From contig NC_092573.1 of the NCBI RefSeq assembly GCF_037975245.1, positions 13,968,001 to 14,032,000 of the forward strand: DNA of 64,000 nucleotides, in the 5' to 3' direction. The translations under genes were made by a program, and so were the position numbers. A model generated the notes under the pieces. That model made no database searches. It was given only the letters and a program-made list of their open reading frames with translations, and was not told the DNA's origin. This DNA comes from Apostichopus japonicus (taxonomy: Eukaryota; Echinodermata; Holothuroidea; Aspidochirotida; Stichopodidae). Positions 3,354 to 42,122 of this stretch are shown here, piece after piece (the stretch's first letter is position 1; every line of letters begins with the position of its first letter).

Positions 3354-4255
3354 CACAGATAGCCGAGTTCCTCCTCTCACTCTTCGGAGAAGGGAGACAA
3401 GTCTCCACTATCAGGAATTACAGGTCGGCCATCGCTGCCATCCACCAGGGCTTCCCAGATGGCTCCACACTGAGCAATAACCCGTACATTGCACAACTCA
3501 TCAAAGGCATGGCGAATCGTCGCCCACAGATCAGACGGCTGGCCCCCTCCTGGGGACTCTCAGCAGTGTTACATGCCCTGGCAGGACCACCATACGAACC
3601 AATGGCTAACGCCTCCCTGGCTGCCCTCACAAAAAAGACACTCTTCCTCGTCGCAGTTGCGTCAGCAAGAAGGAGGAGTTGCCTCCACGCCCTATCCACC
3701 AAGCAGAATCACATCAGATTTGAGGGCCACGGGGTGAGGATGGTTCCAGACCCGTCATTTATTGCAAAGAACCAGACCTTGACCTTCTTGCCAGGAGACA
3801 TTTTCATCCCGGAAATTAAGACCATGTCATCAGTAGCCGAGGACAAACGATGGTGTCCAGTCAGGGCACTGAAGTGGTACCTGAACAAGACAGAGAAGTT
3901 AAGACAATCAACTTCTCTCTTCATCATACCACGACCACCCTACGCAGCGGCCTCCAAAGACACTCTATCCAGGTGGCTAGTAGAGATCATACGCCCGTTC
4001 ACATCGGGGACCTCCCGACCAAGGGCTCACGACGTCAGAGGGGTCGCGGCCTCTACAGCCCTATTCGCCGGCATCCCGGTAGAGGACATACTCAAAGCAG
4101 CAGCGTGGAAAACTCCAACTACGTTCGTCGCCTGCTACTTGACCGACACTTTACACGCCGAAGCGGCATTTGGTAGCGCGGTGATGCGAGGTCCGGTGGG
4201 TAACAGGTCCCACCCCTCGGGCCTCCCACCATCGGGCAGTGCCACTCGGTGCTAA
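3242..4255 (+). CDS. DIRS ORF3, tyrosine recombinase
   Basis: The ATG at 3242 opens a frame that runs to TAA at 4253-4255 (337 aa); the same frame is open far upstream but there only shadows the RT ORF. The N-terminal part (ATYDSRLRKFDQWC) resembles the SAM-like DNA-binding region of YR retrotransposons. Catalytic features are visible: a basic ASARRRS segment around 3657-3680 where the first Arg is expected, the HxxR box HDVRG at 4028-4042, and the nucleophile Tyr in FVACYL (TAC at 4136-4138) after the typical AAWKTPTTF. The enzyme would integrate a circular cDNA without making a target duplication. The overlap with ORF2 is 112 nt. The exact start is inferred; in-frame sequence just upstream (SLRQRRFSEAAAA) could also belong to it. 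Confidence 0.9.
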   Translation: MAADARRGTTAATYDSRLRKFDQWCRPRQILLPAASVTQIAEFLLSLFGEGRQVSTIRNYRSAIAAIHQGFPDGSTLSNNPYIAQLIKGMANRRPQIRRLAPSWGLSAVLHALAGPPYEPMANASLAALTKKTLFLVAVASARRRSCLHALSTKQNHIRFEGHGVRMVPDPSFIAKNQTLTFLPGDIFIPEIKTMSSVAEDKRWCPVRALKWYLNKTEKLRQSTSLFIIPRPPYAAASKDTLSRWLVEIIRPFTSGTSRPRAHDVRGVAASTALFAGIPVEDILKAAAWKTPTTFVACYLTDTLHAEAAFGSAVMRGPVGNRSHPSGLPPSGSATRC

Positions 4256-14487: not shown

Positions 14488-14775
14488 TAAAGGCATTGAA
14501 GACTCTCCCCAAACCATGTGCGGCCATCTGAAAAAGTTAACTTTCTGTTGCTTGCAAGTGATGTTTTGTTCGTGTCGCTACAAAATGCAGACAGTAATGA
14601 AACGTGATACCTTGTTATCTTTAGCTGGACCTGAGATGTCCATCGCTGTATCGTTTGTATACTGTGCTGTGGGTATTGACCGCAGCTGTATGTACTGACT
14701 GTACACTAGTGTTTAATTACCGACGGTAGCAAGCTGTGTGTGTATTTTCTGGGATCAATGGTGGTGTTAAACACT
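14488..14775 (+). repeat. dispersed repeat, copy 1 (partner at 51484-51775)
   Basis: TAAAGGCATTGAAGACTC, then GCAGACAGTAATGAAACGTG, ATACCTTGTTATCTTTA, GTACACTAGTGT and GTGTTAAACACTTC match 51484-51775 in order at roughly 85-90% identity. No TIR or target duplication was found, so the class is unknown. Confidence 0.75.
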
Positions 14776-16611
14776 TCTGTTACACCTCATTCAAAAGTAG
14801 GTCAGATTACCGGCATTAGACGTTTCTTTTTGCGCAAGTCTTCACACCCTTTAAGGCTTTTGAGGGCAACACATACGACCCTTCGATAGCTAATGTAGCT
14901 TTGGTTTGCAGTGACTCTTAGTTGACACATGATGTAGTTTGCCTCTACTTGAGTGTGTGCGGATGGAATAGAGATATGTACCTCAGATTTGAGTTTAAAA
15001 GTCTTCTCAATGGAATGTCATAGAGAATTAAGGCCAAGTGATTTAAAGTTTCTGTCGTAACCAAAGAACCTTGTGTTATGTTGAGAGTATTGTTCTGTCC
15101 TGTTTATAGATTTTTATTGTAGGAAGTTAGGAAGATTAGTTATGTTGGACTCATGTTTTCTGTTAAAGCAATAGTTAACATTGAGTGGGAAAGGTCAGTA
15201 TTTATAATGAAACAGTAATGGATGGCATTGTGATCTAGTCGTTGTTCTCCCTTTCAAGTTGAATTAATACTTTTTATTCTGTTTTTGTGAATGAAAAACG
15301 GCGGTTTCTTCTCATCACGATTGATATCGTGACTGGTCATACTCCAAATTTATCCTTTTAATTTGTACAGATTTGCATCATAAACTTGCTTTTGCATGGC
15401 TCATATCGATATTACTACGTATATTCAGTTGATTTATAATGTCAGTTTAATCACAAACAGAACAACGCTGTATATATCAAAGACAAAGAAAAACTTGATA
15501 GTGATGAAAGTTGGAAACTTTTTTCCCTTTATAAATGTAAGTTATATCATCTAAACTAAAACAATGTGGTGAGAAGTGGATTCACAAGTATAAACCAAGG
15601 ATTTGTTGCATTTTAAAGTAGCTGGTTGATACCTTTCATAGCCATATCCCACAAATTTATAATTTGTATGACCTTTTCTTTGATTAACAAGATTGAATTT
15701 ACTATTATTACTGAAAACTTCCCAACTCCAATTTTCCAAATCAAGCTGTATTCTTTAGAAGTACCTTATGTTATAATGAAAATACCGAAGGTGTTAGGTG
15801 TAAAGTGGATGATAAAGTGAATACAGAATTGTTCTTTGAAATCGTCCTAAGTAACAAATTGTGGTTAATATATCAATAGTGCAAAGTATTAAAACCTTGT
15901 ATGAAATGTCCCCATTGTATAGTAAATCCTGTATTGTTCTACAGGTGATAAGTGTTATTTGTATAATTCTGTAATGTCCCCCTCTCTCTATCTCTTGTTT
16001 TGTTTTTCACCCTATAACTAATGATACTCTGGTACTCACTACACTCAACATATTTTACACAATGCAATCGCCCAGTTTGGGACATATAAACAAAATTCTC
16101 CTTTTGTTTTGGTCAACTGATAGTTTTGTCCACTTCAAAGCATGACACTGGCAGTATGAATATTCTGGGTTTATCAGATAATGGCCCAAAAACCTTTCAT
16201 ACTTGTCAGTAATATTTACTCTGAAGCATTACATTTCAAGTACCATATAGAGTGGTACTAGTAGTAGTGTGCAAACTTACTGATGTATTGCTAGATGTAC
16301 TGCATATTTATGACTTAATTGGTGAAATTGTTGGAGTATTAACCAATCAGATTTTATCTTCCCTTTTCCTTTTTTTGTTGTCCATGTGATTATTATTAAG
16401 TTTCCTTCCATATAGTTATATACCACCTCTTCCATAGACAGCAAATGAAAGCAAAATGTGTTTTTAATGTATATCATTGCTTTGTACATGCTTTTAAGTT
16501 TATTATTCTTTGCATGCTGCTGTTGCATCGATTTTTAAGTCAGTAATATTATGATGATTATTATTTTTTAATTAACTGCATTTTTGTTCATGGTTTGCTC
16601 ATGTTTTGCAG
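14776..16611. other. noncoding, nothing recognised
   Basis: AT-rich DNA without convincing ORFs, splice-bounded exons or transposon ends. It ends in a pyrimidine/T-rich stretch before the possible exon at 16612. Confidence 0.45.
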
Positions 16612-25200: not shown

Positions 25201-28200
25201 AGTAAAAGAGTAAAATCCACGTATTCCAACAGTAAGTTTCATTTGAGGTTTTCGTTTTCACATGTCATGCGTACAAAAACGTGATCACCAAATATCCCAA
25301 CTGCAGGTGCGCGTGCGGAATATTGACTACCCTGGAAATCTAGGTCATGTCCTGGTTTCTGCTCACAAGCCTGACACCTGTTTATTTGCATTCCATTCTG
25401 ACTTAACAAGGAGTTGTTACAACCCTGGCAAACTGCCAAGAAACGTGCAACGCTATATTAACCCGTCTTGTAAGAGAGGAGGGGTGGCCCAAGCAGTCTC
25501 CCAGGTACCTTGCTTAGCGCGTGTGAGCTCAACCTTTGCAGCAACGAGCTTTACCGTGGATTCCTGGAAGTACAAGTATGTTCGCGAGATTTTACGCCCT
25601 GGGATTAGTTTCTCAATATATTCAAATTTTGCGAATAACATTTCCTCATTGTCAAAAAACAAACTTCGATAACCATTGAAGAAAAAAAAAGAAGGAAAAT
25701 AACCGGACGATTGAACGGTGAGAAAAATACACTTAACATAGGGGTAAAACGTTCGTAACATTTGCATATTAATAGTACTTTCAGATGTTTCCGACTTTTT
25801 AAACAGTGTTACATTTCGTGGCGCCTTGTGTGTCTGGTAATGGCGGTACGTTCGGCGTTATCAATAAAAAGCTTAGCAACTTTTAAGGAGCTACGGGAGT
25901 GACATGTTAAAACATTGAAATTATTTAAAAAAAAAGTTCAATACGTATCTCCGTGTTACATATTAAACATTAAACATTTTCGGTTGTGTCGGCAGGAGGT
26001 AAAGAATAAAGTAACGATGCTGTAGTGTATTTATATTCGTTATTCAGTCTGGGATTTATTGGATTACTTCATGTGTACCGTTGTTTTGAAAATATTTTGT
26101 GCGACGTTTTGAGCCTAGGTAAAACGATATTTTTGTTGAACTGAAGCCACTCAGAACCAGGATAAGATATAGTGGGAATGGTTGGTTGTCGCCCGACACC
26201 AATGGGCATTATCATCAATATGTCGATATTTCTCTTATTTCTTGTTACTGCTCCCCACTCCTTCTGCTTGAATTTTTGTTTCAAAAGGTTAGTAAATAGT
26301 TGTTGTACATTGCATGCTTTTGCTACTTCAATATATTTCTTCGCAGCAATTTTGTGTTCAAAGTTGTATCACCTTTGATTTTGTTCGTAGCAGAAATACT
26401 ACCCTGTGCTGATAGTTTATTCCGTCCGGATTATCGGACGGATTCAGACGTTTTGCGAGCTGATATTAGAACTGCCTCTAAAATCGCTTTTGAATAGAAA
26501 CATAGTTTAGCCTTAAGCGTCCGGATTATCGGACACATGACGCTTTTCTGAAATGAAAGGGTTCTTGCCTCTGTAATCCATACTGTTTTGTTACTTGAGT
26601 CGGGCTAAAAACGTCCGGATTATCGGACAGAATCGGACATATCACCATTGTAACTTCTATTGTAACAAACTGAGAAGATCGATTTAATCTGGTGTGAAAA
26701 AGTAGGCAGTAAACCACTTGTTCCGTCCGGATTAAAAGTGAATATTGTTGGAGTAAAATGTACAAAAGCGTCCGACCGTCCGGAGGTGTCAGAAAACGTC
26801 CTAAAGTGTCCTAAAGTGTCTGGAAACATCTGAAAACTTCGCGTCCGGACGGTCGTGTCAACCTCGACGGAACACCACTGTATGTGTAGTGCTAGCTTGC
26901 AGTCGAGTAATCGCAACTTAGGTTTTGAGGGCGATTAATCAAACTTCCAAAGTGTAATCGCGATAACTGGCAATTAATCGATTACGACTATCAGCACTAG
27001 TGTAATGACAAGCCTAGACCAGCTCTTATTGTAACCAAATGTAACTTAAAGCCTCTGAGTCTGACAATATTAGACCAAATATGGAAGATATCTGACTTAA
27101 CTTCAGACTAGAGACAGTAACCCATTCCCAACCTGTTAGCTCACATGACCCCACCAGTTCATCCCTTACAATAAAACATGCTATTTGGTTCTGTTGCAAA
27201 TGTAGCCTAATCAGTTCTTGTCATAAAAAGTCACTCTGAACAAGCCTTCAATACAATACCTTATAATGAATAGTTTCATTCTGTACAGCAAAAAGAAAAA
27301 TATGGCTCCAGCAATTTACATAAAAACAAATTTATAATTTTTTATTAGTAAATTGTAATAAAAAGACTTAGCATTTTGTTTTGTTGTTGCGATGATACTA
27401 TATACAGATATTATTGATAATGGACTGTATGGGTAATGCACGTATGTAGTGTAGAATTATGATGGTTTGGATACCAGATTTAGGTATTTATTACACTAAA
27501 AGTATAATAGGTTTTGATAGTTGGGGCTCTAAGTACTGTCACTCTTTGGTCAACATAAAAAGTGAAGAAAACATTCAGTGTTAACACTTCAGAATTTTAT
27601 CTAGGAAATATAATTTGTCATTTGTAAACTTTCACAGAGAACAGCTTGACTCAAGAAACAGATCAAGAAGCAGAAGCCCGGCCAGAAATTACGATGACAA
27701 TAAACGACGAGATAGGAGTGATCGTAGAGATCGGGAACGAAGAAGAGATAGAGGGCAGAGCAGATCGCAATATGCTAGCATAATCGACCAAAGGACGGGG
27801 AAAGAACGAAGAGTGAACTACGAGTATTGCGTCTTTGTTAGTAACATTCCATATGAAGTAACATGGTCGGAACTGAAGACACTAATGTCTGAACATGGTT
27901 AGTATTGTTGGCTGTAACAGCCAATTTTTTGTAATGTTCAGTGATGAATGTATGTCCTTACTAGCCAACCCACTGGCTTCATTTTAATGAATTAGCTGTA
28001 ATATTTTTGTTGATGTTAACCATCACATCATCACCCCCAAGTGTCAAAATTCATTAATCTGTTAAATGATATATTTTGTCTTCATCTTTCTGCAGTTGGA
28101 CCTGTCGCTTATGTAGAATGCTTCCAGGATGTTGATGGCAAACCAGCTGTAAGTACTCCTCCCCCCCCCCCCCCCCATAAAAAAGCCTTTAATAACAACT

Positions 28201-31200
28201 GTGGATGATGTAAATGTTATGATAATACTTATATATTTCCTTAAATTACGTGAAAAAAATATATCAAATGTTGAGAAAGTTTTCCTGATGTCTTAAATTA
28301 GCTAATACTGACATTTCTAGCAATTGTTTCGTGTAAACACTAGGAACCTCTTCTTTTGGCACAATTACAACCAGCTTGTAAATAACCCAATAACTTGATT
28401 GTAGTAAAATATTCAGCCTAGAAATGTACATGCAAATTAAGGGCAGAACTAGATACACCAGGCTATTACAAAGTGTTGTAATGCTTATATAGTATGCTTA
28501 GTATTGATACTTGAAAATTAGTTTTGAAGGCCCTAATCAACAATTGAGCTCCTACTGTAACACACTATGCTGGTTTGTCAGTGTAGAATAGCACCCCTCT
28601 CAGACCTAAGGTAAGGCAACATATACGCTTCACCCTTAATACCTCCAGTGACGATATGTCTGGTGGTCTCAATGTTCTGGAGTGACTAAAGTTTCACATT
28701 TTATGATTCACTCATTAATTTTCCTTTGGTAAAAATGTATTGGAGAGTGTTTTAGTTTGATCAATTGTTATCCCACTTTGTGTAATATTCGTAATACTTG
28801 TGTAAAATTACCAGCAAATGCAAAATCTAAGCTGCCTTCATATTTGGAATATATGGTGTTTTATTCTTTTTGTATCTTCACTCTCTTTTCTTCTGCATAT
28901 ATTCTTGGTTTCTTATGGCTCTGTTTGGATCCCAGGGATGTGCGTAAGTATTTATGTGTGTAAGGATAAAGTATTGTAGTATTTAACTGGAGTTTTTCAT
29001 GTTTCGTTATAAGTGTATGTCATTACATGCTTTTGAATACCTATGGCAGTAACTACATAGTTCTCTATCCCTAGCATGTCTTATTTGTGTACGTGCCTTT
29101 GAATACCTACAGTAGTAACTACATAATTCTCTATCCCTAGCATGTCTTATTTGTGTAGATGCCTTCGTATACCTACGGTAGTAACTACATAATTCTCTAT
29201 CCCTAGCATGTCCTATTTGTGTAGATGCCTTCGTATACCTACGGTAGTAACTACATAATTCTCTATCCCTAGCATGTCCTATTTGTGTAGATGCCTTCGT
29301 ATACCTACGGTAGTAACTACATAATTCTCTATCCCTAGTATGTCTTATTTGTGTACAGTACATGCCTTCATATACCTAAGGTAATTGGAATATTGAAAAT
29401 GGCAAAGTCTAATTTTCCTCTTGCTATGGACTTGTTTGACTTACAGTGTGGATATACACTTCAGTACTGTATCTGTTAAATCCTGTACAGTATTTAATTT
29501 TTTAGCGTTTGTTAATAATTGTAATGAGTATTAGATTCCGATGTGTTGACCTCATCATATATTTGAGCTCTACAGCTTGGACTGAGACTTTTCATTCTTG
29601 AATATCAGTCACAGATGCTGTGTTGGTCAGAGAAATAGTCACTGGCCCAAAGCAGTTATTAATATGTAATTGTACAGTAGTTGTTAGGAAGTGTGCCTTA
29701 TGGAACAACCGATGGCCTGAGTATTACAGTAGTGTTTATATTCATTTCTGTTTGCAGGTTTGTAGAGTTCAAAGAAAAAGACTCCGCCACGAAAAGTGTG
29801 GAATCCATGGACAAATATGACATTCGAGGGAGGAAACTTGTTGTCAAACCAGTAAGTTTCACAAACTGTCATTTCTAAATGTGATTTTCTTCTTTTAATT
29901 TGTGCCCATTGAAAGGAACATCATTCTGTATTTCATTGTAAAGCTTCTTTGGGTAAGAGGTCACCTAAACCTCCAAAGAATAAATATTTCAAAGGTTGCA
30001 CAAACATGAATAGATCTGTAGCAGAAAAGATCTGGGCCACGAAGACGTGAAAGGGGCAAGAATGCTGGTTAAAAAGTTGACTTATAATGCATCCAATAAT
30101 AGGTCAAAGTCACATCTTGGGATATGCAGAGTGCAGACCACATCTGAACTAAATTTGTGTTATATCCTGAATGAAGGTATCCTAGAGATCTGTTTAATTA
30201 TTACCAACAGTGAGTAACAGTTACTTACCAACTGTAACAATGCAGCAAGGTGTGAGAGTCTGTCATATATAATATATATGACAGACTCTCACACCTTGCT
30301 GTAGGTCTATGGAGTCACTGGAGTGGAAAGGGACTTATGAAGAGGGGGAGGAAACATATTTTAAGGAGGCAGACAGTTGTGAAGAAATAAAAAGAAGGAA
30401 AAATTCAAGGAGTTTGTTAATGTCAACATGTTGATATAGCATTTTGCAACTGTTTATCAAAGTACAAGAATTATCACAGAATGTAAAGTAAACTTTGAAA
30501 AGTAAAGAAAGTTTGCTGATAAACATATCTGATAAAATAATTATAAGCTGATTTTTTTTTTTAACTCAATGAAATGCAAGAATTAGATTAAATACTCACT
30601 GGAGGTTGAGTAATTAGAACAAGTAAAAACAAGGTGGTGAAATCATGCAAACAGTGATTAAACCATATAAACAGCATTTGCACAAAAAAATTCTATAAAT
30701 TTTTGTTCCAAAAAACTAAAATATTAACATTGGCAGGTAAGAAGCAGCTTCTTTTTGAATTTACAATGTTCCCAGCAGTAGAAAAAATCCTTTCACTCGG
30801 GACAGACGTTGACGGTGTTCCTAAATACCTTTGAGCTAGGGTGGAAAGAATAGGAAAATTTGTGTGATATTGCTTCCACCAAAGGTTAGGGTTGGAGTTG
30901 TGACTGGGAGTTGGGAGGCCGATGTAGTGGGCGAGCTCCCTCTCGTCAAAGTCGTCACATTGGGGTGTCTGGTTGTCGTCGCCATCGCCCAACAAGAAGT
31001 CCATCGCGCTTCTTTGTGGCTCTGCAACGTTGCTGCTTCGGCGCCGCTTCTTGGTGGCGGGTTGTTGTTCCGAGATGTGTTCCTTCATTTTGTCTTGTAC
31101 CATTACTTGCTCTTCCTTTGAAAGGAACTTCAGGCCTTTGTACCGAGGGTCCAGGAACGAGGCCAGCTGGGCTCTGCTGACTTCCTCACTTGGTGTGAAC

Positions 31201-34200
31201 CTGTTGAATATTAAAAATGATGAAATGTTTATGTTGTACAAAGAAAAGCTAAAGTTGTAATGGGGAAAATTGTGGCAGGTTAGTGATACGCTGGCAGATG
31301 AACACCATGGGAATTCAAGAAACTGCGTTAGCGATAAGTGATCTGTTGGAAATAAACAATTTTTTTTATTATCCCCAGCTCACCTTCAGTTGATCGATCA
31401 CCATGGGGATCCGAGTTCCTCCGTTGGGGATAATTAATCTGTAGGAAAGAAAACTTTTTTTCACATGCTCACCTTCTTTTCAAGTCATTTGATGTAGTAA
31501 TCTTGAAGGCCTTCACTGCAGGAATGTCCTCAGCATCCACTTTCAGGTGCCTCTTCACTAGTCCGCTGACTATCGGCAGGACACTGGAGAGGGAAGTGTT
31601 TTGCTCGGACGACAAAACAGTCGTTGCAATCTGCAAAATAAAAAAACAAAATTATAAATCAATTACTCTTTTGTTGTGTTAAAAGTAAAGAAAGAATATG
31701 TAAACCCCAAATTTGGTAAAATGACACAAAAAATTCTCCACAATTTTTTTGGGTAAGTCAAGAGGACCACCATTGAGTGTAAGAAGAACTCGGTTTACAG
31801 AATGTAAAAAAAAATAGTTGAAATAATTGAATTTGTAATTCAATTATATTTAACATAAAATATGGTCAAGTTTTCTGATATTTTTGTTGTTGTAGAATGT
31901 CATTAATAATTTCTGGGAGGGGGATGGGGGGTCATGCAATCAATGTTCAAAATGCTACAAAAATAATTATTATAAAAAATCCAGTTTAGTTTAACCAAAG
32001 TTGCAAAATAATTCAAATTTATAAAATCCTATAGATGCAATTTTTTTCTATAAGTCAAGAAAAAGTACCACTTATGAGTGTTGGAACTCTGTTAGGAGAT
32101 GTTTGTTAGACTTAGCATGTTATAAAGTATTTGGGAAGGGGAAAACAATCAATGCCAAAAATATTACCTGTAGTGGTTCCAGGCAAGCCAACAGCTCCTC
32201 CGCAATCCTCCAGTCTTCATCCCGAATTTCTAAGGTCCTCACATCAGTTAAAGAAGTGAAGTGACGGTCACTTAGCACAGCACAAACTGCCCAACGCTGT
32301 TCTACAAGTCTTTTCAGCATCTCGAAAACAGAGTTCCAACGTGTGCAAACACTCTGAATAAGTTTGTGCTTAGGCAAACCTAACTGCTCTTGCTTTACTT
32401 CCAAAGCCTTTGTAGCTGTAACACTCTTTCGAAAATGTGCAACAAGTTTCTTCCCACAAGCAATCAAACGTCCGATTTGAGGATGAGCTTTTAATCCGTT
32501 GTTAACACATAACTGTAGGGTGTGTCCAGCACACGCAACGTCGTCCACTCCAAGGGATTCCCCTAAATGTTTAACATTACTGGCGTTGTCGTGGACGATC
32601 GCATCAAGTTTATTTTCCAAGCCCCATTCCTTGACGATCCTGGACATCTGTGTAGTGAGGGCATCTGCAGTGTGGCGTACCACTGTGTCCTGGCCACCCT
32701 CTTGATTCACTACCGGTGTAGTGTCTAGGACATAGCTCCGATTTACCCAGTCCCCATCTAAACCATGTGCTGTGACGGTCATGTAGCCCTCTGATGACCT
32801 AGAGGTCCAACAGTCTGTTGTGACGGACATGAAGGCAATCTTCTCCAAATCGGTCTGCAAAGTCGTCTTCTTTTCCTCGTACTTTGCTTTCAGTAACGCT
32901 GACATGGTCTTCCTTGATGGTACCACATAGCTTGGCTCGATGGCCTTCATGAGGGCACGAAATCCATCTCCTTCGATGAAGCTGACTGGTAGCGCATCCT
33001 TGGCTACCATTTCGACGAGTAGGTTGTTGAGCCTCTCAGCTTTCTTCGGGTTGCAGACTGTTCGGCTGATAAAAGCGTCCATAGTTGCTGACAGTGCCTT
33101 CTCTGCAACCTGATGCCTGAGTTTCAGATGTTTGGTCATTGACCCAGTCGAACCTCCTAGGTACTTCAATAAGGTGCCGCAGATCTTGCACTTCACTGAC
33201 GACTGCACCGACTTCTCGAAAGAGTTCCATACTTTGGAAGGCATTTTGAGATATCCTTGAACGTAGTATGTAGTTGAGCTTGAGAGTATTGACTTGCAAT
33301 GAGAACCCTCAAAATTCGTGCCTGCTTTTATCCTTATTACAACCTTTGATCTCCCTCCGACATCATTAGAAATCTTTGAAGAGGTACCGCTTTCTAAGGG
33401 TGTTTCAGACTTCGTAATTAATTGATAAAAGGGAACTTTGTATACGTTTCGAATGTTCGAAAAGATTACCAATTTCGAAGAGTATTTCAGACTTGGTAGT
33501 CAATTACTTATCAGACTTTGTAGACATTTAAAATGTTGTTTAGATAGTTACGGAGGTTTCAAGATTATAGTGAAAATGATCACAAAATTTGAAAGGATTA
33601 GATGCAGGCTCGCCTCATTGTCGAACGGGGTAACAATAGGCGCTACACGGGTCAGTAATCCCTTCAATCGTACCGCCGATCTTAAAAATCTTTTGTATGG
33701 ATGCGTGATAAAGTTTGCCATTGTTACGTGATTTTCGGCAAGCAACTGTTGCGGTCTATTTCGGGAACAAAGTGATGTGAAGACGCGCCATAGCGACTGT
33801 GTAATTGGCATTACAAAAACGGTTAAACTTATACGATGTACGGCGGATGCTTATCCGGCCGTTCGGTCGGTTAACCGGTTAACCGTTTAACTGTTACAGC
33901 CCTAATATATATAAATGGCATCCTTCATGTGTGGACCGTCAACAAAAAGGGGTAGGGGAGGTGCCAGGTGGGGTATCGTAGATATAAAGGGAGGTCTCTT
34001 GCTAAGTAGTCATACTGTAGTTACCCAGTGTGCTATCCTTCGGTGTTAAGTAAGGGCGTGTATACAGAATGAACAGAGACAGAGAGCAAACTAGAGACGT
34101 GTGTTATGATGCTCTACGTACAATATTCTAATCTTCAAATCTGTCCGTTATCGTCCAATACGGTATATAAAGTTAATAACAGAAAGGTGGCGGTATACTA

Positions 34201-37200
34201 CTTCATCTTTACTACATTACATCGGTTCTTTATAAGTATCGTTTCAAAGGAAACTCATAGTTCTGGAGCTGACTTTTGAAGATGACACCATTCATCTCTT
34301 TAACACCGTATCTGCTTGTCTTATATAACAACACAAACACATATTCAATACAAGGAGACTGCAGTGAGACATTAATAGTCTTTTATAGTCACAAACTCAA
34401 CAAACAACTGCCATAGCTTAAAAATCTGGTAATTCAGTTTTTGTGTTATTGAGTTAATTACTAGTCATTCTATGCATCTTCCTCTGATGTGCGTCTGTTT
34501 CTTTCACAGGATTTTGATGGTCACCACAGCAGCAAATTCCGTCGTAGGAAAGAGCAAGATATGAGAGCTCATGCACTGCTGACTCCTCAACTGCTCCAGA
34601 GTTTGAGCCTTGATCCAGATTGTCTGTCAGATACTGTTTTTGTTGCTAATGTAAGTCTTGATTTTCATCAGTAAGTCTAGTTTCTTGCAATGTTTTTAAT
34701 TAAGGAGAGTAGAATAGTAGAGTTTCCCACCAGCTGAGCATTCAGGTGGGCAAAAATAGAGAAAAAGGGAGTTATAGGTTAGGGGTTTTGAGATGTATGT
34801 ATGTATGTATTTAAGATCCTCCTGCAAGCAGGAACTTGCGAAGAAGCCATCATTGGCTTATCAAAGCCGCAAGCTGACCGAAGTCAGTCTCACATTCATA
34901 TTTAACGTCCATGGTTATGAATTGTCAACAACTCTGTAACTGGACGACATACATTAATTTTGGAGTGACTTGAACTCGGGACCTTATGATTGGAAGTCAC
35001 AGGCATTAACCACTGAGCTAACACTCCAATGTGATACACATGTGCCAATGTGCTAATGTGCTAACACTCCTAGATGTGATACTGAGGTAGCAGTGTTGGA
35101 TGTTTTCATCATCCATTCAGTTGGCACAGTGCCACAGTTACCTGTTAACGATTACAACCAGTTCTGAGCTTTGTATCGTGCAGGATCCGTTGTGTTGGTG
35201 TTGACTAATAGAAAAGGAACAGAAAGTAGGAAGAAGATGAAAAAGAAAAGCAAAGAAAAGGGACGTAAAATAAACTATCAAGCAGCGAGTGCAAGTAAAT
35301 GCTGTAAGGAGTATTTTTTCTTCCGTAGTAGAACAATCAGTTGATAGTAGGTGCGGGTTTGATCCTCGTCTTACACTTCTTAGTCTCAGGTACAAGTTAG
35401 CACTCTGTCGTAACATTCTCTCACGTTTACTCGTTCTCTCAGCTCTTCTACAAGATGGATTGGAGAGACATCAAGGACGTGTTCAGGGTCGCCGGTAACG
35501 TAGAACGGGTCGAGGTCTTCAAGGACAAAGACGAACGCAGCAAGGGTCTGGCAGTCGTCAAATTTGAATCGGTGGTGGACGCCGTGAATGCCATCTGTAT
35601 CCTTTATGAAGTAGAAATCGTTTCAGAGACACGGCGAATATTTGATGTCTATTTGACAGGTTTACAGGACATTGTATAGATATGTTGTTCACAGACAGAG
35701 GGGGACTAGGAAGACATTGAAAGCTATATCGGTAAAATGGAAGTGTTATCAAGTAAACAGACAGTGGAAAAAATTATGGTTAAAAGATAATGTCTGAAGG
35801 ATAGTGGAATACTTAATATGAAGTTTGAAAAGCTGATGTCAAATATATATTTGACAACATTAGTCAAACTTGTATATCATCAATGATAGTTTTCAACTCA
35901 AAATCTAGCTTTCATTGAAGAAATAGTATATTATTTTTTTAGCTACTTATGAGGAGAGATATAAAGCCGATGGTAAAGATTGTGGCCAAAGAATTCATGT
36001 ACTGACCTCTATTAGTTTAGGGCTGATGTAAATACCATGGACTTTTGTTTTATACAAACAGTTGTAGGAAAGATTGTGAAGAATAAAAAAAAAAGGATGG
36101 ATTTTGAAAAGTTCCTTAACGTACATATCAGGTATGCTGAATGGAAGAATGTTACACAACAGAGAACTGTTAGTGAGAATGGTAAGGTATTATTATGGTT
36201 GAGGGATTTTTTTCTATGTTGCAAATTTTAAAGGAGGTTTTCTGGGTTTTTTGGCCAGAAAAGGTAGCAAATAACAAAGAACGAACAATATATACACTGT
36301 AGGAAAGATGTGTAGGTTTGGTGAATATAACACCAATATGTACGCTGTAGGAGAGATCTGTAGGTTTGGTGTATAGAACACTGATATGTATGCTGTAGGA
36401 GAGATGTGTGGGTTTTGTAAATAGAACACCAATATGTACACTGTAGGAGAGATGTGTAGGTTTGGTGTATAGAACACCGATATGTATGCTGTACGAGAGA
36501 TGTGTGGGTTTTGTAAATAGAACACCAATATGTACACTGTAGGAGAGAGGGGTAGGTTTGGTGAATAGAACACCAATATGTACACTGTAGAAGAGATGTG
36601 TAGGTTTGGTGAATAGAACACTGATATGTATGCTGTAGGAGAGATGTGTGGGTTTTGTAAATAGAACACCGATATGTACACTGTAGGAGAGAGGGGTAGG
36701 TTTGGTGAATAGAACACCGATATGTACACTGTAGGAGAGATGTGTGGGTTTGGTGAATAGAAAACTGATATGTATGCTGTAGGAGAGATGTGTGGGTTTT
36801 GTAAATAGAACACCAATATGTACACTGTAGGAGAGATGTGTAGGTTTGGTAAATAGAACACCAGCTTTGGGTCAGTGAAACTCCAATTTGGTGTCATATG
36901 TCAACAAGTTTTGTCATCAGCTATTAAGCTTTTGATGGTAGCTATGTCCCCAAAAACTGAATTTTGCTCGCAAAGTGTGCAAGATATAATTGTTACCATT
37001 TATCGGTTGAAATTTTCTACAAATTAGAATCGTGAGAAGAACCTCAACCAAAGAGAGAGGGAACCACCTAAACCAAAGCCCGTTCCAATTCCACGTGAGT
37101 CGTTTCTATTTACTATAAAAAAAATTATCCGTCAATAATTCTATTTCTTTTATCCACCTGACTTTTGTTTACAATCTTGACTCTTGCTGTGTTTAAACAA

Positions 37201-40200
37201 AGCATCCTTCTAAACATTTGGTGTTTGCTTAATTTTATTTACATGTTTTATGATATTCTCATTAGTTGTTTGGTTATTCCATTCTGTGGGTAGTAGGGGG
37301 ACTGTGGTGTGCCTGTTGCAACTTATAAAGCAAGATGCTTGTTATAACACTCAACTGTGAATCAGTTTTGACTACTCCATTCAGTAGATAGGGGAAATAA
37401 TTTCTTATTGGTGTTGTTACATCCGTGCGTTAACTCAGTTTTTGCCTATTCCATTTCTGCAGGTGGGTTAGAGAGTATGGGACCAAGCCTGGAGCAGATA
37501 GCCCAAGGAATACATACAGGACCTGGCAATATGGGTGGTGGAAGAATGGGAGGAAATATAGGGATGGGTGGTGGTGGAAGTCTAGGTGGAGGGGGTATTG
37601 GTGGTGGAGGTGGAGGCTTAGGGGGTGGTCTGGGTGGTTTTCAAGGACTTGGCGGTGGTTTGGGGAGTGGTCTAGGCGGAGGGCTCGGCTCTGGAGGGTT
37701 AGGAGGAGGGCTAGGTGGGGGATTAAGCAGTGGTGGTTTAGGAGGACCAGGTTCATCGTCCCTTGGATTGGGCAGCAGTGGTGCTGGGTTGGGTCTAGGT
37801 GGATTAGGGTTAGGTGGAGGGCTGGGTAGTCTGAACCCAAACATGGGTAACTTGGGTAACTTATCGGGTGGACTTGGATCCAGCAGCAACCTTGGAAATT
37901 TGGGTGAGTGCCATCTTCCTTTGTCTTTTGTATGTGTATGTGTATGTGTGGTAATTGAACAATAGAGCTCACAATTGAGTAAATTAATCTTAAGAAATGG
38001 GTAAAGAATTATTGGTGATATGGGTATTAAGGTTATATTGGTTCATGCAGGAGAATTTGTGATACCCACTTGTTGTCATCAACCAGCCTTACTACTGCCC
38101 ATGTCATCAACCCTTCACAAGTGTTCTCTACAACAGGATGAATGTCATCACGACAAATTAGTGCTGAAATTTTCTGTAAAAACAGGAAACAATGCTCGTG
38201 TTTTATATTTTGTGTAGTGATTTGGAGATTTATGGACTTTGCTAGTACTTAAAAATGATAGCAAATGCTGAGGATCAGTACTGTTTATAATAAATGCTAT
38301 GGATCAGTAGTTTGTACATAACTGCATTTTTCACATCTTTGCAATCGGATAGCAGTTTTTAAATTTGCATAGCATTTTGCTGTGTGCACCATGCCAGATA
38401 AATGCTTCCTTAATCCAAGCTTCTTGTTGCAAATTTTAGAAGTGCTTGTTGCAGATCTGGTGAAGTTGATAGTTGTATTTTGGTATGGATAGTTTTATTT
38501 CACATGAATGTTACTTAGCCATATAATAATTCCACATCACATTTTTGGATACCATGTGGTGTGAGTAAGAAATCCATTGAGCTGATCCTAATAAGAGAAT
38601 GTTTGAGTTCATTAATAAAAATTTCTCCCTTCAACTATTGTAACATTATATCCTTTCACTCGCAAACCGAATTCACTGTTTGTCAAATTGTTCAGTTCCT
38701 GGAGCAGTTTCTTTCTGGTTGTGAGTTAACAGTTACAATTATATCTTCGGGGGCCTTATCGTGCCTTTCAGCAATAATCAGCGAACCACCAGATTATGCC
38801 AAACCCATCACAAAATGTACTTTGTGAGCAACAATTTGATTAAGAAAGCCTGGTTTTGACTTGAATAAAGAGGCCGTTCAGAGTCTGGATCGAGTAAAAG
38901 TAAAGTGACATCAATCCAGTCTTCGATTATCAAGACATCTCCAAAATAGATATCATTCCAGATAAAGGTTTCATTTATGGGTTATGTTGTACTGTACTCA
39001 TTTGAAAAATGTACAAATAGAATTGAAAGTCTTAGAAAGTATTGATTTTGTCTTTTCTTTTGAATGATGTGCAGGTGGTTTAGGTTCCAGTGATATGGGC
39101 CGTTCCCTCGGGGGAGGTGTAGGGTTAGACAGACTCCAGAGTGAGCTCTCGCCGCGATTCAGCAATTTACGTGATGACCTTCCTCGTGATATCGGCCAGT
39201 CCAGGGGATCCAGCAGTTACGGTCACCGGGATAACTACCCCCAGGATATGGGCTACAGGGATAGGGATATGGACCGACACGGCATGGGTAGAGACCGTGG
39301 GGACAGAGGTGGACATGGCGGGCACAGTAGCGGTCATGACAGGGATCATCGTGATCGCAGCAGTGGAGGTGGAAACTTGGCTGGCACCCCAAAAGAAGGA
39401 GGTTGCCAAATCTTTGTTAGAAATGTGAGTCAAATTTCTGCCTTGATTTGTGAACAATATTTTTTTTAATCATTTTTAAGCACACTCCTCATGTCCTGTT
39501 TTAGTCTCCCTTGGGGTCTTTTTCCAAAGAGCGATTAGAATTATCATTTCGTTTTGTTTTGTTGTGTTTGGATTTCCAGACTTATGATTGATATAAGAAA
39601 GCCTTATCATAAGATCCCAAGCAGAAGCCAAAGATGTAGATAAAGCTACCCAACAAAACATACTATTCTCTCTCTCTGTTGGCGCCTTTAATAGGAAACA
39701 TAAGTGGTATTGATCAAAAGTGCCATGCTTCACAGAGAAAGAACGCAGCATTTAACGGAAACTTGGCAAGAGGACCGACAATATCTCTATTCAAAAGCTC
39801 TCCTATTGAATATGAAAACTAAGCTGTTGTGTGGATCTTAATTATGTTTACTTTGTCTCAACATAATCTACAGACCATTTTGGGAGTAAGCAAATTTTGT
39901 CAATGATGAAAAATTGGGTGAGAAAATGCTCAAATATCACTTTCATAAGTGATGAAAATATTCTGTCAGACTGTTCTTCACTCCAAGGGAACCGTTAAAG
40001 AATCGTTTGGATTTAATGGCACTGGGCTGTAGCTAATGTTTCAGTGTTAAGAGGATGATTTATCAACACACAGATTGCAAAGTGGCCTTCCAGTTTGGTT
40101 TAAGATTACAATTGCAATGTGTGATAAATTATGCTAATGAATAGTTTGGATTTAATGGCGTCTTGGCATGTAGCTGATGTTTCAGTGTTAGGAGGATGAT

Positions 40201-42122
40201 TTATCAACACACATATTGCATAGTGGCCTTCCAGTGTGGTTTAAGATAACTATTGCACTGTGTGATAAATTATGTAGCAAAACTGGAGGTAAAACAAATA
40301 TATTTTCTCCATTTTCTTTTCAGCTGCCATTTTCAGTGGACTGGCATCAATTGAAGGATGCCTTTAAAGACATTGGTGAGCTCATGTGTGTCCAACCTAC
40401 ACTATAGTTTAGTGTAGAGGTGGATGAGTCAATAAGAATCTGATTTATTAAAAAAGCACATATTTTATCATGTCTAAATGTATCATTTGCGTAGAAAACC
40501 CCGCAATATGACATATTACAGAGAAAAACTTGGTACTGTTGTACCACACTTACCTCACATGCACAGATCAAAGGCTACATTTTCAAGGAAAAGGCCTGTT
40601 TATTTTCAAATTGCTGTCAATCCAGCTTCATTCATTTTGAATACGATTTGGTCCTAGAAGCCAACGACAGTTCAGTTCTTTTATCTGGGCTTGTCTAACA
40701 TGGAATAATGGAAAACGAGGCTGAACAATTGGAAATTCATGTTTTGAATACAACAACAAAAATGTTGATGGAGGTCAAAGGTCCACCTTTTTACAAGAAT
40801 CCTGCTATTTTCTGTGGAGGTCAGAGGTTATTTCAGGTCGACAGAAATCAAAGTACAAAGACCCTTTTATACATGATAAACTTCATATGTGGTGTGGTCC
40901 GGTGGACAAAGTTGATGTGTAGGGTCCACTGTGTGCAAGGACCTTGATGATTGCTGGAGGTCAGCAGTGCTTAACACTTGAAATCTGATGTGCATTGTTA
41001 CATGAAGTATGCTGCTCCTCAAATGAAATGTGGGAAGAAATAGCTAAGCCTCTTTGTCTTTCTGGTTGCATTTGTCAGGCCATGTGATGTATGCCGATGT
41101 CAAGATGGACGACCAGAACCGGTCCAAGGGATACGGCACAGTGCGGTTCGAAAGAGCAGAAGAAGCCTATAGGGCCATCAGTATCCTTTATACTATAAAT
41201 AGCTCTATCTCAGATCTAGGCTGGTTTTAACTTCCGTTGAAAACAATCAGGGGTCTGCAAAAGTGTCTCAGATGGTGTTTCTTTTGTTTATATAAGAAGC
41301 TAGTCACAAATATAAAATATGAATGTGCAGCAACTTGTAAACCAGGTGACATGTAGATCCAGCTTGGTGAGTACTAGGGTGCTATTGAAAGTGTTTGATG
41401 TCAAAGATCGGTAGAGGTCAACAGAGCTCAAAATCTGACAACCTTGTGAATATGGTGATTCTTATCATACATGGTATGTATGACCCACCTCATTGAGTAC
41501 AACCCTAATCTTATCTGTTTTCTCAAAGGTCATTTGAGGTCAAAAATCTTAAAAATTTTGTAAACATGCATCCGATAACTCAAAAGCTGTATCTTTTATT
41601 GAAGTTCATTCTTGGTTAATGTAGATCCTGTAGGACATGATAACCGCAAATATAAATCTTGGATCATGAACTTCTTTCTAGATAGGTACAGTAAGTTCTC
41701 CATTTGTGCAAGAAACTTGCTGATAACTTAAGTGACTTGTGGTCAACATATAAGAATCTTGTTTGTAGTGTTACTGTTTTAATTTTCCTATACAACAATG
41801 TGGCAAAGAATCACAAGCCAACTGGCTTGCTGGTCATGTTTTGTCTCGGTATTATGAATTGTCCATCTGGACAATAGAGGTGAAAATGTTTTTTTCTCAA
41901 AGTTTGTGAAGGATTTGGTAGTGCAACCTGGACTGACAGGTAGTTTGTATTTAAATTGCCTGTATCGTGCCAAAGCTCCAATGTCTACCCACGGTCATCC
42001 CATTGAGAACTGTACTTCAGTATGATTTGCAAAATTTTCCCTTAACAGAAATTTCTGCAGGTATGATGAATGGACGATCCATCAAGGGACGCAATCTGGA
42101 CGTGTCTTTGGATCGTTACTAG
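22173..42122 (+). CDS. HNRNPM: hnRNP M / MYEF2-like RNA-binding protein, 14 coding exons, 649 aa
   Basis: Coding exons: 22173-22288, 27638-27897, 28096-28148, 28936-28943, 29758-29851, 34510-34650, 35443-35596, 36132-36181, 37028-37094, 37463-37903, 39075-39424, 40324-40375, 41079-41180, 42061-42122. They sum to 1950 nt and keep one frame from ATG to TAG. Order: acidic N-terminus; Arg/Ser/Asp-rich stretch (45-82); RRM1 (~103-177; RNP2 VFVSNI, RNP1 AGCAFVEF); linker; RRM2 (~219-292; VFVANL, KGLAVVKF); Gly/Leu-rich region (~320-460); Arg/Asp/Gly-rich region (to ~568); RRM3 (~572-646; IFVRNL, KGYGTVRF), ending at the C-terminus. Three RRMs with a long Gly-rich spacer before a C-terminal RRM3 is the hnRNP M/MYEF2 layout (nuclear pre-mRNA binding and splicing regulation; human hnRNP M is 730 aa). 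Vertebrate MERMG-type repeats are replaced by GLGGG-type repeats. Invertebrates usually have one gene for the pair, so HNRNPM and MYEF2 are equally apt names. Confidence 0.93.
22940..23446. mobile_element. possible short inverted-repeat element in intron 1
   Basis: TGCGAAGTTCGCC near 22959 and GAAGTTCGGGC at 22978 on the left are mirrored by GGGCGAACTTCGAAGTCACC at about 23412-23431 on the right. Ends are imperfect and no target duplication is clear; the boundaries are approximate. Confidence 0.4.
24059..26880. mobile_element. pogo/Tigger-like (Tc1/mariner) non-autonomous element, 2.8 kb
   Basis: A perfect 24-bp TIR begins CAGTGGTGTTCCGTCGAGGT (24059-24082; inverse at 26857-26880). TA flanks both sides, the Tc1/mariner target duplication, and CAGT-type ends suit the pogo/Tigger branch. 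Inside each end lies an array of ~10-bp units of the type AAAATGTCCG (24095-24215, 26765-26855), and on the right a palindrome GTCCGGATTATCGGAC recurs about every 95 bp. The interior has no DDE transposase; its largest ORF (25262-25672, 136 codons) is unrecognised and may be captured sequence. Confidence 0.8.
26424..26734 (+). repeat. palindromic iterons GTCCGGATTATCGGAC in the pogo-like element
   Basis: Complete copies at 26424-26439, 26519-26534 and 26613-26628 and a half copy at 26725-26734, spaced 95, 94 and 112 bp. Weak similarity between copies (GCCTCT..AATC) suggests a decayed ~95-bp tandem repeat. Such iterons next to a TIR are candidate transposase-binding sites; that role is inference. 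Confidence 0.8.
27638..27897 (+). CDS. HNRNPM: hnRNP M-like exon 2 (RS/RD-rich region and start of RRM1)
   Basis: Acceptor AACTTTCACAG, donor CATG|GTTAGT. It encodes SRNRSRSRSPARN and further Arg/Asp repeats, then CVFVSNIPYEVTWSELK, the first beta strand (RNP2) and first helix of RRM1. It ends with one spare base (G) that joins TT of exon 3 to make Val126. Confidence 0.9.
28096..28148 (+). CDS. HNRNPM: hnRNP M-like exon 3 (RRM1)
   Basis: Acceptor CTTTCTGCAG, donor GCT|GTAAGT. It encodes VGPVAYVECFQDVDGKPA (residues 126-143), matching the GEVTYVELLMDAEGKS type segment of hnRNP M RRM1. It ends in phase 0. A C-run follows the donor. Confidence 0.92.
28936..28943 (+). CDS. HNRNPM: hnRNP M-like exon 4, an 8-nt microexon in RNP1 of RRM1
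   Basis: GGATGTGC lies between acceptor TTTGGATCCCAG and the consensus donor GTAAGTA, downstream of a long pyrimidine-rich tract (28858-28930). With G of exon 5 it gives Gly-Cys-Ala, restoring AGCAFVEF where hnRNP M family RRM1 has RGCAVVEF. Without it exons 3 and 5 do not join in the RRM frame. Evidence is frame, splice signals and family fit. Confidence 0.88.
29027..29382 (+). repeat. 66-bp minisatellite, about 5.4 copies
   Basis: A unit containing CTACGGTAGTAACTACATAA and CTCTATCCCTAGCATGTC recurs at 29029, 29095, 29161, 29227 and 29293, with a partial copy at 29359. It lies in intron 4, between the microexon and exon 5. As 66 is a multiple of three, the minus strand stays open with a 22-residue repeat; I do not call it a gene. 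Confidence 0.9.
29758..29851 (+). CDS. HNRNPM: hnRNP M-like exon 5 (end of RRM1)
   Basis: Acceptor CTGTTTGCAG, donor CCA|GTAAGT. It encodes FVEFKEKDSATKSVESMDKY and DIRGRKLVVKP (residues 147-177), the third strand, second helix and last strand of RRM1. It needs two bases from the microexon to be in frame. Confidence 0.92.
30243..30301. repeat. 59-bp near-perfect palindrome
   Basis: Arms of 28 nt (starting CAGCAAGGTGTGAGAGTCTG at 30243) are exact inverted complements around a 3-nt centre AAT. It lies in intron 5 of the hnRNP M-like gene. The 3-nt loop is too short for a typical microRNA precursor. Confidence 0.9.
30302..30692. other. intronic sequence on the 3' side of the hAT transposase
   Basis: I searched it for a left TIR that would match the right end at 33903 and found none. 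It probably includes the 3' flank of the hAT element. Confidence 0.4.
30693..33244 (-). CDS. hAT-family transposase, BED-finger (ZBED-like) type, 3 exons, 580 aa
   Basis: On the minus strand exons 33244-32168, 31630-31473 and 31200-30693 join in frame (donors CAG|GTAATA and AAG|GTGAGC; acceptors TTTTGCAG and TTCAACAG) to 580 codons and a stop. The start is the Met of MPSKVWNSFEK, the usual start of this transposase type; the frame is open 76 codons further upstream. It has a BED zinc finger (CKICG... KHLKLRH, ~residues 20-50), the SVTTDCWTS motif with the first catalytic Asp, CAGHTLQLC, and a C-terminal dimerisation region (NPNLWWKQY, LGTPSTSVPSERIFSTAG). No stop or frameshift interrupts it. 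It lies antisense in intron 5 of the hnRNP M-like gene. Introns within a hAT gene and full length suggest an autonomous element or a recently domesticated copy. Confidence 0.85.
33245..33903 (-). mobile_element. 5' region and right terminus of the hAT element
   Basis: Sequence upstream of the transposase ends in GGTTAACCGGTTAACCG and TTACAGCCCT (33868-33903). Read outward-in on the minus strand this is AGGGCTGTAACAGTTAAACG, the kind of end seen on ZBED-type hAT elements. The partner terminus beyond 30693 was not found, so the copy may be truncated there. The edge is therefore supported on one side only. Confidence 0.55.
33904..34509. other. intronic sequence before exon 6
   Basis: No repeat or gene recognised. 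It ends at the acceptor TTTCTTTCACAG. Confidence 0.5.
34510..34650 (+). CDS. HNRNPM: hnRNP M-like exon 6 (RRM1-RRM2 linker, start of RRM2)
   Basis: Encodes DFDGHHSSKFRRRKEQD... to SDTVFVAN, 47 codons in phase 0 (residues 178-224). Its end is the first half of RNP2 of RRM2. The donor AAT|GTAAGT is canonical. Confidence 0.9.
34792..35027 (-). mobile_element. tRNA-derived SINE
   Basis: On the minus strand 35027-34962 reads as a tRNA-like head. The acceptor ends GGAGTG/CACTCC pair, the A box is TTAGCTCAGTGGTTAA, and the B-box-like motif is GAGTTCAAGTC. A ~150-nt body follows, then a tail of ATAC repeats (plus-strand TATG repeats at 34793-34811). It lies in intron 6. No target duplication was identified. 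Confidence 0.7.
35443..35596 (+). CDS. HNRNPM: hnRNP M-like exon 7 (core of RRM2)
   Basis: Acceptor TCGTTCTCTCAG. It encodes LFYKMDWRDIKDVFRVAGNV and on to KGLAVVKFESVVDAVNAI (residues 225-275), closely matching hnRNP M RRM2. It ends one base into Cys276 at a U12-type donor, T|GTATCCTTT. Confidence 0.93.
35597..36131 (+). other. HNRNPM: U12-type (minor spliceosome) intron in RRM2, GT-AG
   Basis: The 5' splice site GTATCCTTT fits the U12 consensus exactly. The branch-point TTCCTTAAC at 36112-36120 is also exact, with its A 12 nt before the AG at 36130-36131. There is no polypyrimidine tract before the acceptor CATATCAG. The intron is 535 nt, phase 1. Confidence 0.93.
36132..36181 (+). CDS. 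HNRNPM: hnRNP M-like exon 8 (end of RRM2)
   Basis: With the T left by exon 7 it encodes CMLNGRMLHNRELLVRM (residues 276-292), matching the MFNGQLLFDRPMHVKM end of hnRNP M RRM2. Donor ATG|GTAAGG, phase 0. Confidence 0.92.
36264..36868 (+). repeat. 48-bp minisatellite, about 12-13 copies
   Basis: The unit GTAGGAGAGATGTGTAGGTT followed by TGGTGAATAGAACACC and (A/G)ATATGTACACT is repeated through intron 8. Two alternating unit types (GTAGGTTTGGTG and GTGGGTTTTGTA) suggest a 96-bp higher-order unit. The minus strand is open over 227 codons with a 16-residue period, a by-product of the 48-bp unit. Confidence 0.92.
37028..37094 (+). CDS. HNRNPM: hnRNP M-like exon 9 (basic/proline linker)
   Basis: Acceptor CTACAAATTAG, donor CCAC|GTGAGT. 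It encodes NREKNLNQREREPPKPKPVP (residues 293-314, ending in ..IP). This Pro/Lys/Arg linker follows RRM2. Confidence 0.85.
37463..37903 (+). CDS. HNRNPM: hnRNP M-like exon 10 (Gly/Leu-rich domain)
   Basis: Acceptor TTTCTGCAG, donor TTGG|GTGAGT. After GLESMGPSLEQIAQG it encodes about 110 residues of GGG, GGL and GLGGG repeats, then NPNMGNLGNLSG. Low-complexity Gly-rich spacers before RRM3 are a family trait. The antisense ORF across it is a shadow. Confidence 0.9.
37904..39074. other. intron 10, nothing recognised
   Basis: 1.17 kb of AT-rich intron; starts GTGAGT and ends ATGATGTGCAG. No repeat or nested gene seen. Confidence 0.6.
39075..39424 (+). CDS. HNRNPM: hnRNP M-like exon 11 (Arg/Asp/Gly-rich region, start of RRM3)
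   Basis: Encodes GLGSSDMGRSLGGGVGLDRL, then RD/GH-rich repeats (RDRDMDRHGMGRDRGDRGG), ending GGCQIFVRN, the RNP2 strand of RRM3. Donor AAT|GTGAGT at the same relative position as the exon 6 donor in RRM2. Confidence 0.92.
40002..40275 (+). repeat. tandem duplication, ~139-bp unit, two copies
   Basis: Copies at 40002-40136 and 40141-40275 share GTTTGGATTTAATGGC, ATGTTTCAGTGTTA, GAGGATGATTTATCAACACA and TGTGATAAATTATG with about 90% identity. It lies in intron 11. Confidence 0.88.
40324..40375 (+). CDS. HNRNPM: hnRNP M-like exon 12 (RRM3)
   Basis: Acceptor TTTCTTTTCAG, donor ATTG|GTGAGC. It encodes LPFSVDWHQLKDAFKDI(G), residues 579-596, matching hnRNP M LPFDFTWKMLKDKFNECG. Confidence 0.93.
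41079..41180 (+). CDS. HNRNPM: hnRNP M-like exon 13 (RRM3 core)
   Basis: Acceptor GCATTTGTCAG. It encodes GHVMYADVKMDDQNRSKGYG then TVRFERAEEAYRAI (residues 596-629). It ends one base into Ser630 at a U12-type donor, A|GTATCCTTT. Confidence 0.95.
41181..42060 (+). other. HNRNPM: U12-type (minor spliceosome) intron in RRM3, GT-AG
   Basis: The 5' splice site is GTATCCTTT. The branch-point-like TCCCTTAAC at 42038-42046 (one mismatch to TTCCTTAAC) has its A 15 nt before the AG at 42059-42060. The intron is 880 nt, phase 1, at the same codon of the RRM fold as the U12 intron in RRM2. Confidence 0.9.
42061..42122 (+). CDS. HNRNPM: hnRNP M-like exon 14 (end of RRM3, stop)
   Basis: With the A left by exon 13 it encodes SMMNGRSIKGRNLDVSLDRY and TAG at 42120-42122, matching the RMMNGMKLSGREIDVRIDR end of hnRNP M. 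RRM3 is the extreme C-terminus, as in the family. Confidence 0.95.

Follow-up and report, generated by a model that had tools for sequence, protein, structure and literature searches.

We describe an internal exon of eight nucleotides, GGATGTGC, at positions 28936-28943 on the forward strand of the window, that is, of the whole 64,000-nucleotide stretch of Apostichopus japonicus DNA that was analyzed. In this echinoderm hnRNP M-like gene, the exon very probably supplies three amino acids of RNP1, the RNA-gripping motif of the first RRM (RRM1). We put the probability at roughly 0.83 that these eight nucleotides form a true internal coding exon, essential for the reading frame and normally included in the mRNA. 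The reading of this segment as an exon is strongly supported by the sequence, from which we infer its inclusion, the constancy of that inclusion, the handling of so short an exon by the spliceosome, and the mRNA decay discussed below.

Results

The gene was modeled from exon 2 to the stop codon as 13 exons on the forward strand, encoding 611 residues without an internal stop; the model excludes exon 1. The predicted product consists, in order, of an Arg/Ser-rich start, RRM1, RRM2, a glycine-rich linker, and RRM3, with the stop directly after RRM3. Exon 2 (27638-27897), which has one full match in the genome and matches the Pfam model RRM_1, encodes the N-terminal Arg/Ser-rich region together with the first half of RRM1. 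RRM1 continues through exon 3 (28096-28148, 53 nt, (V)GPVAYVECFQDVDGKPA), the 8-nt exon 4, and exon 5 (29758-29851, 94 nt), which completes RNP1 with (A)FVEF and encodes the remainder of the domain. RRM2 begins in exon 6 (34510-34650, ..DTVFVAN), has its body in exon 7 (35443-35596), and ends in exon 8 (36132-36181). The linker is encoded by exon 9 (37028-37094), by exon 10 (37463-37903), where it is glycine-rich, and by exon 11 (39075-39424), which also holds the start of RRM3. This last domain extends through exon 12 (40324-40375) and exon 13 (41079-41180), the latter including its RNP1, and exon 14 (42061-42122) provides its end and the stop codon TAG.

The initial annotation had called the gene hnRNP M-like, and this is borne out by the three RRMs, the glycine-rich linker, the stop after RRM3, and the matches to chains 2DO0 and 2DGV. 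Members of the hnRNP M family carry three RRMs, of which the second and third are separated by a glycine-rich linker, and end after RRM3; human hnRNP M also ends right after this domain. The 611-aa model has this family layout. With Pfam RRM_1, RRM1 scores 65.9 bits and RRM3 scores 75.8 bits. RRM2 matches chain 2DO0 (1.6e-19) and RRM3 matches 2DGV (3.8e-25); these two and 2DH9 (1.2e-22), which we take to be chains of human hnRNP M, come best after a multi-RRM poly(A)-binding protein entry. RRM2 and RRM3 accordingly have counterparts in the human protein (2DGV, 2DH9, and 2DO0), and Cys is present in RNP1 of RRM3 on both sides. The RRM1 query matched 58 RRM-type chains, hnRNP M included, with 18 other chains scoring above hnRNP M; a search of PDB chains with a sequence of human hnRNP M RRM1 found no solved entry for that domain.

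The donors of exons 7 and 13 both read GTATCCTTT and look like U12-type sites. The introns that follow them (35597-36131 and 41181-42060) are putative U12-type introns with a branch-like element close upstream of the acceptor, TTCCTTAAC (before exon 8) or TTCCCTTAAC. Both are phase 1 introns, and the residue pair after which they interrupt RRM2 and RRM3 is the same (AI/C.. and AI/S..); a match to the U12 snRNA is present in the genome. The human HNRNPM gene has a U12-type intron as well, according to a figure legend of PMC10853781.

The gene looks single-copy, since protein and cDNA searches of the 671.6-Mb assembly (35 contigs) returned essentially its own exons. The protein search found two of these exons plus two weaker matches with 39% and 30% identity, and the cDNA search returned only the gene's own exons, with no retrocopy of a spliced mRNA in the assembly; both searches score the best candidates only, and copies could be missed. 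No orthologues were found in the bacterial and archaeal genomes or viral contigs scanned, as expected for an animal gene.

Exon 4 is bounded by an acceptor AG at 28934-28935, with CCCAG directly 5' of the exon, and by a donor GTAAGTA at 28944-28950. With these functional-looking AG and GT bounds, 28936-28943 would fall in the class of microexons, internal exons from a few nucleotides up to 27 or 51 nt. The initial annotation had placed an 8-nt piece between CCCAG and GTAAGTA, and its coordinates proved exact to the base. Its accounting of the frame agrees with the gene model, in which exon 3 ends in phase 0, reading ..DVDGKPA, and exon 5 is entered in phase 2, reading (A)FVEFKEKD, and requires two incoming bases. 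The outer splice sites of exons 3 and 5 are both canonical, yet the two exons joined without exon 4 are out of frame. This direct join yields DGKPAVCRVQRKRLRHEKCGIHGQI, in which the shifted frame runs through 20 foreign residues to the TGA at 29818-29820, the very stop in exon 5 that had been foreseen for skipping. Joining exons 3, 4, and 5 yields DGKPAGCAFVEF.

The microexon encodes Gly, Cys, and two-thirds of Ala, corresponding to RNP1 positions 2 and 3 and two-thirds of the codon for position 4. The restored octamer, A-G-C-A-F-V-E-F, lies on strand beta-3 of RRM1. The frame and the RRM_1 score with Gly-Cys-Ala (67.6 bits, the best among the products scored) support the earlier proposal that these residues complete RNP1; a longer construct scored 65.9 bits with the three residues and 52.3 bits without them. 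Position 3 of RNP1 is usually aromatic, and Cys is atypical there; an alignment with 2DGV places Cys at the same position in RRM3 of human hnRNP M. The introns flanking the microexon are 787 and 814 nt long, and the interval between exons 3 and 5 is 1,609 nt. The letters of GGATGTGC have one other forward-strand copy in the 64-kb window, at 19178, which is without the flanks of the microexon.

Upstream of the acceptor is an AG-free zone with a pyrimidine-rich tract (28832-28933, forward strand), containing TCTC at -54 and TGC at -42. Longer flank features of this kind played no part in listing the candidate exons described below, and the initial annotation had mentioned a long pyrimidine tract. 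The AG-free stretch spans 102 bases (103 by the measure of the scan) and is the longest among the 13 acceptors, the other 12 having 11 to 53 by the measure that gives 103. An AG-free stretch of at least 103 precedes 1 of 779 other intronic AGs. From -75 to -5 (71 nt), the pyrimidine fraction is 0.76, the highest of the 13 acceptors. It also exceeds the fraction in every one of 1,589 background windows sampled from the gene's introns outside approximately the final 50 nt ahead of each acceptor. From -30 to -5, the fraction is 0.65, an ordinary value below that of 7 of the 12 other acceptors. The long tract of the initial annotation is borne out over -75 to -5, the richness lying mainly farther upstream. 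The AG-free zone and the pyrimidine richness are related features, because a pyrimidine tract holds few AGs. Of the 7,380 AGs on the two strands of the window, 16 combine an AG-free stretch of at least 60 nt with at least 70% pyrimidine, limits that were picked after the values of the microexon site were known, and a single one of the 16, the microexon site, has GTRAGT within the next 36 nt. When the limits are raised to 103 nt and 74%, four AGs still pass, the microexon acceptor among them by its values, so the tract alone is not unique.

On the intron side, the microexon donor is a full match to GTAAGT, and on the exon side, TGC is off consensus and weak. By a donor matrix, this donor ranks last of the 10 U2-type donors in the gene and 8th of the 128 GTs in the region. 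Branch-like yUnAy sites occur at -21, -56, -73, and -96, all inside the AG-free zone; no CTAAY branch site was found in the last 100 nt before the acceptor, and local RNA folding near the microexon does not stand out (z -0.99). Constitutive human microexons, as portrayed in PMC8831610, exceed longer exons in splice-site strength and in the number of intronic enhancers; the exon-side TGC of the present donor does not fit that picture. Two repetitive features were also observed in these introns. An array of approximately five to six 66-nt units lies just 3' of the microexon donor (28958-29355), with four of five overlapping copies 90-100% alike and the first copy 61%, and a run of 16 C lies a few bases after the exon 3 donor (28161-28176).

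Alternative fills of the gap between exons 3 and 5 were listed as every open-frame AG..GT piece of 2-38 nt whose length is 2 modulo 3 and which lies no closer than 40 nt to either intron end. The resulting 49 candidates encode 44 distinct peptides, and the RNP1 form G-[FYC]-[GA] before FVEF arises only in GGATGTGC; the piece originally singled out as the sole fitting one is thus the 1 of 49 that yields an RNP1-like triple. On RRM_1, 9 short rival peptides score 51.8-61.1 bits and 8 others score 48.9-55.7 bits, these 17 representing 22 of the 48 rival candidates. Single-junction alternatives were built from exon 3 donors (GT or GC) within 28110-28500 and exon 5 acceptors within 29400-29790. Among these, 28 joins are in frame and open, none uses both of the canonical sites of exons 3 and 5, and none restores RNP1. 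The 48 other small-exon candidates and the 28 joins were rejected because only GGATGTGC restores RNP1 and because it has the top RRM_1 score among those scored. The pattern AG/GGN TGY GC/GT occurs once in the 1,609-nt intron and does not occur in simulated first-order Markov sequence of 4,000 times that length; for the looser pattern G-[FYC]-[GA], 0.001 occurrences per intron are expected. Across the 64-kb window, the strict and loose patterns are found on the forward strand only at 28936-28943 and nowhere on the reverse strand.

These comparisons make it most improbable that the missing piece is another small exon, an alternative splice site, or an assembly error hiding a join of exon 3 to exon 5. 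The best rival by its donor is a 29-nt piece at 28582-28610, as the GT after 28610 scores highest in the region, and it is one of the 48 candidates other than GGATGTGC that keep the frame open. However, this piece would place ten unrelated residues into beta-3, with RRM_1 dropping to 48.9 bits, and it resembles a second stretch of the intron (71% over 34 nt). The single-junction product that uses a cryptic acceptor at 29768 scores 41.1 bits, and an indel error would leave unexplained how three RNP1 residues absent from both exons come to be found between an AG and a GT. With 28936-28943 taken as the exon, its inclusion could still be regulated. A switch in which the microexon is skipped in some tissues or at high hnRNP M, with decay setting the protein dose, strikes us as unlikely. 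By the junction rule, a stop with exon junctions sufficiently downstream leads to decay. The TGA at 29818-29820 (forward strand) lies 31 nt before the end of exon 5 and is followed by nine exon junctions, of which the second is 172 nt away; by this rule, the skipped form would be expected to decay. On paper, the microexon has the property of essential exons, whose removal gives a premature stop with junctions downstream, and exposure of the skipped mRNA to decay is what would be expected from the sequence. According to PMC6547761, RNA-binding protein genes are known to regulate themselves through exons whose loss shifts the frame; the paper names an essential exon of human HNRNPM as a plausible, lower-confidence candidate, a weak precedent given in one sentence that is followed by the authors' own warning on false positives. 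The present gene shares with those systems the frame shift on exon loss, the early stop, and its hnRNP M-like identity; it differs in that its regulated skipping is hypothetical, and the human candidate may or may not be the corresponding exon. The small size of the exon and the off-consensus exon side of its donor could leave inclusion sensitive. Two matches to GU-rich motifs, presumably of the hnRNP M type, lie within 150 nt of the microexon (0.65 per 100 nt), but over both flanking introns such motifs are not enriched (0.25 and 0.37 versus 0.00-1.09 per 100 nt in the other ten). Skipping of any internal exon that shifts the frame could trigger decay; the frame alone is therefore no evidence of a switch, and the sequence evidence appears to fit normal inclusion at least as well. 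We would give little credence to the more far-reaching idea that the 8-nt exon is old, common to animal hnRNP M genes, and a self-control valve in which protein excess blocks recognition of the tiny exon, removing RNP1 of RRM1 and leading to decay.

It is also very unlikely that the microexon belongs to the neural program driven by the eMIC domain of SRRM-type proteins, which would confine most production of full RRM1 to neurons. Fly eMIC-dependent exons, as characterized in PMC8797185, have a long AG exclusion zone, a long UCUC tract, UGC near the acceptor, a weak 5' site, strong CUAAY branch sites, and short flanking introns. Of these, the microexon has the long AG exclusion zone, the weak 5' site, and the long UCUC-bearing tract, which also contains a UGC. 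The only UGC, however, is at -42, which may be too far from the acceptor, CUAAY is lacking in the last 100 nt, and the flanking introns of 787 and 814 nt are not short. Compared with the neural microexons controlled by SRRM3/SRRM4 or eMIC (PMC8797185), 28936-28943 shares the very short length, the long AG exclusion zone, and the UCUC tract, and it differs in its frame-shifting length, its lack of CUAAY, and the position of its UGC, and any neural control of it is hypothetical. The genome contains one match over the cut-off to Pfam SRRM_C, a model that we assume covers the eMIC domain. A frame-shifting exon under neural control would also silence a general hnRNP in other tissues, which seems unlikely.

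Discussion

For an exon of 8 nt, it is hard to hold the machinery at both splice sites simultaneously. If 28936-28943 is normally included, as we favor, its length would leave little room for simultaneous binding of the two sites, and its flanks seem built to compensate, with a 102-base AG-free, pyrimidine-rich region, more than one branch-like site, and a full GTAAGT donor. The branch site may sit far upstream, which would ease the clash at the exon. One flanking intron may leave first, and the eight bases would then be part of a full-size exon before the second step. Any skipping would give a frameshift and an early stop, and the faulty mRNA would be removed by nonsense-mediated decay. The same crowding at the two splice sites of microexons is stated in PMC8831610.

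Tiny coding exons are already known, and 28936-28943 is a fine further example and not a new type. PMC8831610 presents conserved coding microexons of plants, a set based on RNA-seq with 9-nt exons in AP2 and invertase genes, and mentions an exon of 1 nt in APC11, which means that microexons essential for the frame have precedents. The plant microexons resemble the present one in that an exon below 15 nt, often missed by annotation, provides a few residues in the core of a domain. The AP2 and invertase exons are 9 nt long and backed by RNA-seq, whereas the exon here is 8 nt long, from an animal, and predicted from sequence. No microexon in hnRNP M was found described in the literature, judged by titles and the starts of abstracts in a body of work where subscription journals are thinly covered.

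A gene model without the eight bases leaves RRM1 of a major splicing regulator truncated or mis-framed, so the annotation of echinoderm hnRNP M should be checked. If the exon is common to animals, it would allow a clean test of the way in which an exon below the size needed for ordinary exon definition is included by the spliceosome, and of whether such exons serve in the control of RNA-binding proteins. Were it restricted to this lineage, it would represent an intron pair that splits a conserved motif into an eight-base fragment.

Several further features were observed within the window. Intron 5 contains a perfect inverted repeat at 30245-30299, whose arms, each at least 27 nt long, are separated by a single base, and frames of 228 and 459 aa on the reverse strand at 30693-33499, which look to us like a hAT-type transposase. 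The intron between exons 8 and 9 is rich in repeats at 36170-36900 and has three overlapping long frames on the reverse strand. Overlapping long frames of 736 and 988 aa at 1143-4255 are, we presume, a reverse transcriptase and a tyrosine recombinase of a DIRS-like element.

COX1 was observed on two contigs of the assembly. On contig C35, its product starts with MNLSRWLFSTNHKDIG under table 9 and two Asn read Lys under table 5, because table 9 reads AAA as Asn; judging from the usual COX1 start, we take the Asn reading to be right. Table 9 is shared by echinoderms and flatworms, and the Asn reading makes an echinoderm the most likely host. A cox2-like frame follows cox1 in the same piece, an order seen in echinoderms. 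On contig C29, four pieces of a COX1 copy lie in order at 14745-16086, and a partial second piece lies at 30842-31219; these are perhaps nuclear mitochondrial copies or part of a misassembled mitochondrial contig.
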